Origin: Chryseobacterium sp.
GTDB lineage: Bacteria > Bacteroidota > Bacteroidia > Flavobacteriales > Weeksellaceae
Direction: 5' to 3'
DNA length: 64,000 nucleotides
Assembly: GCF_008831505.1 (NCBI RefSeq)
Contig: NZ_CP044507.1
Coordinates: 620,001 to 684,000 of the forward strand
Shown here: one piece after another, positions 11,119 through 12,236 of the stretch
How positions within the stretch are numbered: the stretch's first letter is position 1
Layout of the letters: each line of letters begins with the position of its first letter
Notes under the pieces: generated by a model
Database searches by the model: none
What the model was told of the DNA's origin: nothing
Seen by the model: the letters and a program-made list of their open reading frames with translations, nothing else
Program-made: the position numbers and the translations under genes

Positions 11119-11481
11119 TTAAAGCATTGGATTATCACCTTCGCCCCGAAGTTCTTTTTCAATCTTTTCAACATCGTCCAGCGACGTATCCAGATAGAAG
11201 TTAAGCTGGGGAATGACACGTACCTGCTTGCCCATTTTCTGGCCAATAAAATTACGGTACTGGGATTTGTTCACCTCAATTTCCTGCATAATCGGTTTAC
11301 GGAATTCCTGGGGGAAAATACTCAGGTAGATTTTGGCAATGCTGAGGTCGGGAGTAACTTTTACATCAGAAACACTCACCATAAAGCTTTCCTTACTCTC
11401 GGATGACTGCTTGCGGAAGAGTTCAGCAAAATCTTCCTGGATAATCTGTGCTACTTTTCGCTGTCTGTTACTTTCGTTCAT
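11119..11481 (-). CDS. rbfA: 30S ribosome-binding factor A
   Basis: 120 residues, single KH-type domain. MNESNRQRKVAQIIQEDFAELF is the typical N-terminal helix and SVSDVKVTPDLSIAKIYLSIFP is the hallmark RbfA core. It acts in late maturation of the 16S rRNA 5' end and in cold adaptation. It is first in an operon with the permease gene. A -7 box (11486-11493) ends four bases before the ATG, so a leaderless transcript is predicted. That box sits back to back with the -7 box for mce. Confidence 0.95.
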   Translation of the reverse strand: MNESNRQRKVAQIIQEDFAELFRKQSSESKESFMVSVSDVKVTPDLSIAKIYLSIFPQEFRKPIMQEIEVNKSQYRNFIGQKMGKQVRVIPQLNFYLDTSLDDVEKIEKELRGEGDNPML

Positions 11482-11485
11482 GGGG

Positions 11486-11493
11486 CAAATTTA
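11486..11493 (-). promoter_or_regulatory. -7 box of rbfA, 4 bases from ATG
   Basis: TAAATTTG on the reverse strand, separated from the start codon by CCCC only. One base away on the other side is the forward -7 box of mce. Confidence 0.65.
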
Positions 11494-11494
11494 C

Positions 11495-11502
11495 TACTTT
11501 TG
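11495..11502 (+). promoter_or_regulatory. -7 box of mce
   Basis: TACTTTTG on the forward strand. A transcript from here would carry the folded element at 11514-11657 in its 5' leader before the mce ATG at 11690. Confidence 0.55.
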
Positions 11503-11513
11503 TTTCAATTATC

Positions 11514-11657
11514 AGGGCGTGGCCATCCTGTTGCGCGGCCGCAGGCCGCGCAACAGGATGGCCGGTCTCCGTGCAGTCGCTTTTTCTCTGTTTGGGGGCG
11601 GCGGCGCAGCCGCCGCCCCCAAACAGAGAAAAGAGCTCCAACAATGCACTCCGCCCT
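11514..11657. repeat. Structured intergenic element: three-way junction with two perfect hairpins
   Basis: A GC-rich 144-base element. The closing stem AGGGCG/CGCCCT pairs 11514-11519 with 11652-11657. Inside, hairpin 1 (11521-11563) is a perfect 20-bp stem with loop GCA. Hairpin 2 (11582-11632) is a perfect 24-bp stem, also with loop GCA, and is extended by GCT/AGC around a bulged G. A further stem GTGCA/TGCAC (11571-11575 with 11645-11649) encloses hairpin 2. Neither hairpin has a T-run. From memory, the ends GGGCGT and CCCTCACGC resemble a dispersed repeat of flavobacterial intergenic regions; I could not check this. No reading frame is supported across it. Confidence 0.85.
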
Positions 11658-11689
11658 CACGCGCAGGAAGTCATCAAAACAAATTCAGC

Positions 11690-12088
11690 ATGAAAATAGA
11701 ACATTTAGGAATCGCCGTAAAATCACTTGAAACATCAGATAATTTATTTGCCCGCCTTCTGGGAAAAGACAGTTATAATAAAGAGTCCGTGGAAAGGGAA
11801 GGCGTAACTACTTCCTTTTACCAGGTAGGTGAAAGCAAAATTGAACTTCTGGAAGCAAGCAATACCAACAGTCCCATCGCTAAGTTCCTGGATAAGAAAG
11901 GGGAGGGAATACACCATATCGCTTTTGGCGTAGAAGATATCCGGCTGGAAATCGAGAGATTAAAGAAGGAAGGTTTTACATTTATCTCCGAAGAGCCTAA
12001 AGACGGTGCCGACAATAAACTGGTGGTTTTTCTTCATCCAAAGTCAACGAATGGTGTATTGGTAGAATTATGTCAGGAAAAGCCCTGA
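11690..12088 (+). CDS. mce: Methylmalonyl-CoA epimerase
   Basis: 132 residues in the vicinal-oxygen-chelate fold. Metal-ligand positions are visible in MKIEHLGIAV (His5), SKIELLE, GIHHIAFGVEDI (His) and VLVELCQ (Glu). It interconverts (R)- and (S)-methylmalonyl-CoA in propionate and odd-chain metabolism. The reading frame is open for 119 codons upstream, but that stretch is antisense to rbfA and runs through the hairpin element, so I start at the ATG at 11690. The gene is divergent from rbfA, with its promoter next to that of rbfA. Mutase genes are not in the window. Confidence 0.93.
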   Translation: MKIEHLGIAVKSLETSDNLFARLLGKDSYNKESVEREGVTTSFYQVGESKIELLEASNTNSPIAKFLDKKGEGIHHIAFGVEDIRLEIERLKKEGFTFISEEPKDGADNKLVVFLHPKSTNGVLVELCQEKP

Positions 12089-12162: not shown

Positions 12163-12236
12163 GGCCTTGTAACTCAGCTGGTTAGAGTAGCTGACTCATA
12201 ATCAGCAAGTCCTTGGTTCGAGCCCAAGCTGGGCCA
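12163..12236 (+). tRNA. tRNA with CAU anticodon (elongator Met or Ile2)
   Basis: 74 bases fold as a cloverleaf: acceptor GGCCTTG/CTGGGCC with one U-U mismatch and a G-U, D stem ACTC/GAGT with AGCTGGTTA loop, anticodon stem GCTGA/TCAGC with loop CTCATAA (anticodon CAU), T arm CTTGG/CCAAG with loop TTCGAGC, discriminator A. The CCA end is not encoded (ACT follows). CAU is read either by elongator tRNA-Met or, after lysidine modification, by tRNA-Ile2. The acceptor does not decide this for me. Confidence 0.95.

Follow-up and report, generated by a model that had tools for sequence, protein, structure and literature searches.

The element at positions 11514–11662 of the window (the whole analysed stretch of 64,000 nucleotides of Chryseobacterium sp.) is one copy of a dispersed, modular and mostly intergenic repeat, and the type A copies of this repeat are the Flavo-1 of Rfam (RF01705). 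The frame of the repeat, that is, the ends, the spacers and the foot with a bulged G, is conserved, and the hairpin interiors are nearly free. The copies are dispersed over many related genomes, the element is present or absent at fixed sites, and its stems covary almost wholly by Watson-Crick pairs. What the copies keep is nearly strict Watson-Crick pairing, from which we infer folding of the DNA strand itself within the cell; the repeat would move or be lost through such folding. A fold at the DNA level, in which a dispersed repeat that can be lost forms a hairpin or cruciform, is favoured over an RNA, with a probability of about 0.6.

Structure of the element

The element lies between two open frames, rbfA on the minus strand (11119–11481) and mce on the plus strand (11690–12088), the names being those of the preliminary description. 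The frames diverge around the element, starting from 11481 and 11690, respectively. The strand of the window copy that corresponds to Flavo-1 in the sister copies is the minus strand, which is also the rbfA strand. A position in the 5′ leader of mce, given in the preliminary description, is thus only putative.

From the 5′ end of the strand read, the order is the outer stem P0, hairpin 1, P1 with the pair N:N′, P2, and hairpin 2, the foot of which has three pairs and a bulged G. The left side of P0, GCGTG (11517–11521), shares its final G with hairpin 1 (11521–11563). Hairpin 1 has 20 bp and a GCA loop, and its interior differs among copies at the same site. According to the comparison with other copies, 11564–11567 holds the left side of P1 (GG), the unpaired T11566, and C11567, which is N of the N:N′ pair. 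The left side of P2, GTGCA (11571–11575), precedes hairpin 2 (11579–11636), which consists of a variable interior and the conserved foot GCTTTT / AAAA-G-AGC. The perfect part of hairpin 2 (11582–11632) has 24 bp and again a GCA loop. The linker TCCAACAA (11637–11644) joins hairpin 2 to the right side of P2, TGCAC (11645–11649); P2 is assigned from both the fold and the comparison. The family form of the linker is TCMAACAA, which was mostly part of the search pattern. N′ (G11653) and the right side of P1 (CC) are located at 11653–11655, and in another copy at the same site (L129) T:A replaces C:G. The right side of P0, CACGC (11658–11662), is assigned by family comparison.

The two perfect hairpins with GCA loops and the GTGCA/TGCAC stem enclosing the second one are present as read in the preliminary description. 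A closing stem of AGGGCG (11514–11519) and CGCCCT (11652–11657) was also proposed there. These two segments can pair, but the covarying closing stem of the family is the competing GCGTG/CACGC stem. In type A copies, P0 is fully Watson-Crick in 27 of 34 (shuffled mean 6.0, maximum 12). Thus, the end of the element is 11662, not 11657.

Hairpin 2 is lengthened by GCT (11579–11581) and AGC (11634–11636) across a base that, from the family comparison, is probably a bulged G11633. RNAfold on the window copy puts the bulge at an A of the A run, not at G11633. For the region 11490–11680, the RNAfold energy is −114 kcal/mol. Dinucleotide shuffles (n = 200) gave −64.1 ± 4.4 (z = −11.4), and none of them was as low (0/200). 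The two perfect hairpins, set in a three-way junction, are thus far outside the range of shuffled sequence. The G+C content is 0.67 in 11514–11662, and the flanking 300 bases have 0.42 on one side and 0.41 on the other, in agreement with the earlier remark that the element is GC-rich compared with its neighbours.

Distribution and modules of the repeat family

In the preliminary description, the ends were likened to those of a flavobacterial repeat that is dispersed and keeps its ends while its hairpins vary. The searches support this likeness, and similar elements were found in many related genomes. In the genome of the window itself (2.76 Mb, two contigs), sequence search gave two more places. 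One of them is a full element; its ends, GGGCGTG and CTCACGC, are the same, and its hairpins are quite unlike those of the window copy. The type A model gave 10 matches in this genome at E up to 0.1.

The type B pattern, which describes the type of the window copy, was found in 54 of 296 genomes of the family, and the reversed control pattern gave none among the matches listed. Type B was also detected in 17 stretches of named contigs, which include Kaistella, Chryseobacterium, Cloacibacterium, Polaribacter, Kordia, Xanthomarina and Wenyingzhuangia. A second core defines type A, whose pattern occurs in 15 of 149 relatives. With covariance models (CMs), R1 (type A) matches 98 and R2 (type B) matches 72 of 120 sampled family genomes; many of the type A counts per genome are lower bounds (at least 35). 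One type B copy (L094) is on a contig titled Bifidobacterium breve (MAG), which is probably a mis-binned Bacteroidota contig.

The cores differ at the foot of hairpin 2, which is ATC/GAT in type A and GCT/AGC in type B. A third core, with the foot ACT/AGT, is located at the rbfA site of one genus. The bulge of type A is present in both the computed consensus and the Rfam model. A second end set, AGGAGC ... GGGGCTA, joins both cores, and it often occurs without hairpin 1. In four Polaribacter copies (L086, L095, L096 and L099), the interior of hairpin 1 contains an apparent second, terminator-like hairpin, and this arm thus seems able to accept other sequence. In three loci (L119, L251 and L365), the interior of hairpin 2 contains a sequence like GTCATNCTGAG... 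or a complement-like counterpart. This sequence looks like another dispersed repeat.

The places occupied by copies differ from genome to genome, and other places are without the element. Long open reading frames hold few of them, 15 of 128 in a first sample and 5 of 115 in a second sample. In the second sample, 108 copies were used after 5 in long frames and 2 at edges were left out, and their orientations to the neighbouring genes were 51 ++, 25 −−, 20 −+ and 12 +−. Co-orientation was observed with 63 upstream genes (p = 0.10) and 71 downstream genes (p = 0.001). The first sample, from which 15 copies in long frames and 11 at edges were left out, gave ++ 58, +− 18, −− 15 and −+ 11 (n = 102). 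This first count suggested a placement downstream of co-oriented genes; many of its loci are, however, orthologous. Considering this together with the values of the second sample, no firm orientation rule is claimed. A replication bias was also rejected, since half of the copies (54 of 108) have a positive 10-kb GC skew on the element strand. The exact type A pattern gave no hits in viral contigs, and one type A copy used as a query gave no match in plasmid and phage records.

Relation to Flavo-1

Fifteen element loci were scanned with Rfam. RF01705 was reached in nine of them, always on the strand opposite to the strand read. All eight type A loci reached it (L065, L068, L178, L215, L217, L237, L275 and L276), corresponding to seven places, as L065 and L215 are one place. 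Only one of seven type B loci reached it: L105 did, and L088, L098, L099, L102, L128 and L244 did not. L105 combines the core of the window copy with the other end set, and its score is 44.5 against the cut-off of 42. The window copy itself does not match RF01705 at the gathering score or among matches up to E = 10. Its other Rfam matches up to this E value are all under the cut-offs and are mostly miRNA-like hairpins.

The window copy is therefore a Flavo-1-like variant, not a member by the rule of Rfam. The architecture of Flavo-1, consisting of P1, P2 and a hairpin with a bulged base, is found in the fold of the window copy and in the type B alignment including L105. The Flavo-1 consensus and the family agree in the order of P1, P2 and the hairpin, in the bulged base and in the single-stranded blocks. 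The window copy differs in its core (the GCT/AGC foot, TCMAACAA and a longer P2), and it has the outer stem and hairpin 1, which are absent from the 76-position model as printed. The window copy thus extends the family beyond the Rfam model: the cores are of more types, and an outer stem and another hairpin arm are added.

Covariation and Watson-Crick pairing

In type A, P1 is fully Watson-Crick in 48 of 52 copies (partner-shuffled mean 14.7, maximum 25), and P2 is fully Watson-Crick in 51 of 52 (mean 26.4, maximum 39). In type B, 34 of the 42 copies parsed for P1 have it Watson-Crick throughout (shuffled mean 7.2, maximum 15), whereas P2 is fully paired in only 40 of 75 (mean 13.6, maximum 22), a count flattered by taking the better of two registers and shuffling on the chosen one. 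These counts use 52 of 53 type A copies, with P0 counted in 34 (L228 was not parsed), and for type B P1 42 of 75 were parsed. Among 70 type B copies, N and N′ form a Watson-Crick pair in 68, and the other two are neither G-U nor A-C.

In the CM alignment (72 matches, 69 distinct), which is fitted to its own model, 98.7% of 1230 cells are paired, and 14 of 18 pairs change on both sides. Double-sided changes occupy 224 cells, compared with 66.5 in shuffles and at most 53 with the partners slid. The stems thus differ among copies with compensating changes, the kind of covariation to which the preliminary description had pointed.

The rarity of wobble pairs was evaluated against tRNA. In 102 distinct type A copies, 505 of 510 cells are Watson-Crick, where the positions left free in the regular expression were counted; G-U is 0, A-C is 4 and other is 1. 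On the opposite strand of the same copies, G-U is thus 4 of 510. In the 1230 cells of the CM alignment, G-U is 8 on the strand read and 5 on the other strand (that is, A-C 5), and other is 11. As a control, 41 distinct tRNAs present in the same loci were used; their acceptor and T stems gave G-U 38, A-C 3 and other 22 in 492 cells, with the acceptor register chosen to maximise pairs including G-U. The 22 other cells suggest that some tRNA stems may be misplaced. Compared with the tRNA share of G-U, the Fisher p values are 9e-13 (0/510), 1e-8 (4/510, other strand) and 2e-14 (8/1230); they are guides, because the cells of related copies are not independent. The P2 letters were fixed by the search pattern in the first type A set, and many copies came from searches with models in which pairing raises the score and G-U ranks above A-C. 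The observed share of mismatches is therefore a lower bound.

In the arms of hairpin 2 (89 distinct copies, 1013 cells), the mismatches on the strand read are A-C 16, G-U 2 and other 10. The A-C mismatches correspond to wobbles on the Flavo-1 strand, and their share is 1.6%; three of the 16 are from related copies, by eye. The short stems lean likewise, with A-C 10 against G-U 4, and P2 of type B adds 12 against 8. The CM alignment is without this lean (A-C 5 against G-U 8).

Presence, absence and pair changes at the ybeY-mnmG site

The site between ybeY and mnmG provides filled and element-free loci. An intact element is present in 14 of 33 loci, requiring at least four changes on the tree of the flanking DNA. 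L394 is scored here as element-free, and by eye a decayed copy is present. The 14 copies carry all four Watson-Crick states of N:N′ (GC 3, TA 3, AT 1 and CG 7), with at least five changes on the same tree, in which 17 of 30 inner branches are weak.

Six element-free relatives group together, and five of them read AAGCTAAA. Where these relatives have AAGCTAAA, L383 has AGAAGC, the element and TAAATAA. The alignment of filled and element-free sites is consistent with a clean join that would leave no target duplication; the element-free state may be either an old empty site or a loss. L383–L412, L103, L105 and L111 form a series of filled and element-free loci in one genus (gene names by eye), which is suited to determining the polarity and mapping the ends.

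Folding as DNA or as RNA

In the favoured reading, the DNA strand would adopt either a cruciform in the cell or a hairpin formed while it is single-stranded, in replication or movement. The Watson-Crick pairing may then be kept because a protein recognises the folded DNA, or because mismatches within the folded strand are repaired to perfect pairs. Repair of this kind would explain both the long perfect hairpins of the window copy and the differences among copies at the same site. A new mismatch in one arm would be turned into a Watson-Crick pair, the hairpins and the nested stems of 1–3 bp would change in concert, and the pairs would pass through all four states without lasting intermediates. 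The perfect hairpins of 20 and 24 bp in the window would be end products of such repair. The full proposal, that Flavo-1 is a DNA element folding in living cells, not an RNA, and that its stems are perfected by repair within the strand, is put forward tentatively; taken as a whole, it is possible though less likely than not.

The alternative that survives best is a structured noncoding or untranslated RNA made from the Flavo-1 strand, which at this site is the rbfA strand; we regard it as unlikely. Relatives of the element are filed in this way by Rfam, where RF01705 has the type 'sRNA'. Flavo-1 was inferred computationally, and its authors rated an RNA as probable and cis-regulation as improbable (PMC2864571). 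In Flavobacterium psychrophilum, several 5′ transcribed regions are described as coinciding with Flavo-1 hits; according to the same account, the hits appear indistinct between sense and antisense to the transcribed regions, many are in none, and the transcriptome gave no real clue to a function (PMC9723704). One review names Flavo-1 where it treats the small RNAs most abundant in bacteria, and leaves its function column blank (PMC9029176), and RF01705 is also named in PMC3765529 and PMC7682815. A description of Flavo-1 as a DNA element was not found in the freely available article text searched.

The 16-to-2 lean of the hairpin 2 mismatches toward wobbles of the Flavo-1 strand argues against a DNA fold. 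It would be expected under selection of an RNA from this strand, and yet it is far weaker than in tRNA. Further points against the favoured reading are the full pairing of type B P2 in only 40 of 75 copies, the use of pairing-rewarding models to find many of the copies, and the negative outcome of the searches for an enzyme and, with type A queries, for copies in viral, plasmid and phage records. On either strand, the G-U share of the stems is at most about a fifth of that of tRNA, and in some counts it is below a tenth. True RNAs tolerate G-U pairs. At the ybeY-mnmG site, one pair occurs in four Watson-Crick states and no intermediate was caught, which is odd for a helix tolerating wobbles. 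The two orientations of the copies to neighbouring genes and the similar sense and antisense placement in the transcriptome also speak against an RNA.

If the fold is a DNA fold, many Flavo-1 annotations would be of the wrong kind, and the family would serve as a natural archive of how DNA hairpins form and are corrected in living cells.

Comparison with transposase-associated repeats

Mobilisation as a REP-like element by a RAYT (Y1 transposase), for example of TnpA_REP subclass 2.6, is an improbable explanation. The element is folded, intergenic and dispersed, and a target duplication was not seen at the one mapped site. TnpA_REP subclass 2.6 is described as mostly from Bacteroidetes, with atypical flanking structures of which copies occur elsewhere (PMC6006769). 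A Y1_Tnp match is present in 56 of 65 element-bearing genomes, and the genome of the window has four.

The lead to a RAYT/REP transposase in the preliminary description was followed by scanning 54 Y1_Tnp loci (240 kb at 52 places) with regular expressions and CMs. Four of the loci are from the genome of the window, 30 were best-scoring, and 20 were chosen by place for subclass 2.6-like genes. Among the last 20, two re-cover genes of the genome of the window and seven show YIHQNP, as in subclass 2.6. The element was matched in only one of the 54 loci, about 1.3 kb from the gene, and in none of the seven with YIHQNP. Two element-rich genomes, G038 (at least 35 R1 matches) and G152 (at least 32), are without a PF01797 match. 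A RAYT is therefore not an evident present partner, and as a present-day neighbour of the copies it is largely refuted. No enzyme for the element was found in the Y1_Tnp loci examined. One Y1_Tnp gene of the genome of the window (C1:747198; L061 and L210) is frameshifted and carries NHLH, WQ and YIHQNP motifs like those of TnpA_REP subclass 2.6. No family element is present in the surrounding 6 kb or so.

The family resembles REP, BIME and REPIN in being short, folded, intergenic repeats with many copies in both orientations. It differs from them in having two hairpins and nested stems of variable sequence, and from REP with RAYT in the absence of adjoining Y1 transposase genes, which two copy-rich genomes do not have at all. 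The ends of IS200/IS605 are folded DNA, their specificity depends on base pairing rather than on fixed letters, and insertion occurs without target duplication. By analogy, the element may resemble these ends in mechanism, as folded DNA with pairing prevailing over letters and without target duplication; unlike IS200/IS605, it has no tnpA inside. The attC sites of integrons act as a folded single strand with conserved boxes, an unpaired base and a variable terminal hairpin. The conserved boxes, unpaired base and variable terminal hairpin of the element suggest a similar likeness in mechanism; unlike attC, the element is without a GTTRRRY core, by eye.

The rbfA-mce site

At the site of the window copy, eight genomes have an almost constant spacer, GGT(C/T)TNCG(T/G)GCAGTCGC, and an almost constant tail, GAGCTCCAA(C/T)AATGC..., and their hairpins are very different. 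The hairpins of L127 are similar to those of L128, and a G+C-rich tip is common to the window copy and L170. Eighteen distinct regions were parsed, of which seven have the type B core, four have the third core and seven have no element.

The element is kept at this site in several genera (11 of the 18 regions), but a role as attenuator or stabiliser, acting in the 5′ leader of mce (or rbfA) and retained for that gene, is very improbable, as the 7 element-free regions include one from the genus of the window itself (G002, L190), the same frame adjoins many other genes, and within hairpin 2 the conserved T run lies on the 5′ side of the stem and the A run on the 3′ side. By eye, a T run directly 3′ of a G+C-rich hairpin is absent in the window element, and the position of the T run in the 5′ arm, not after hairpin 2, thus indicates no standard terminator.

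Protein matches to the mce frame at E ≤ 0.001 occur in 104 of 120 genomes and include weak ones. A tRNA gene is located downstream of mce at 12163–12236 on the plus strand. In two of the seven element-free regions, short pieces like remnants of the element were observed by eye, in the opposite orientation.
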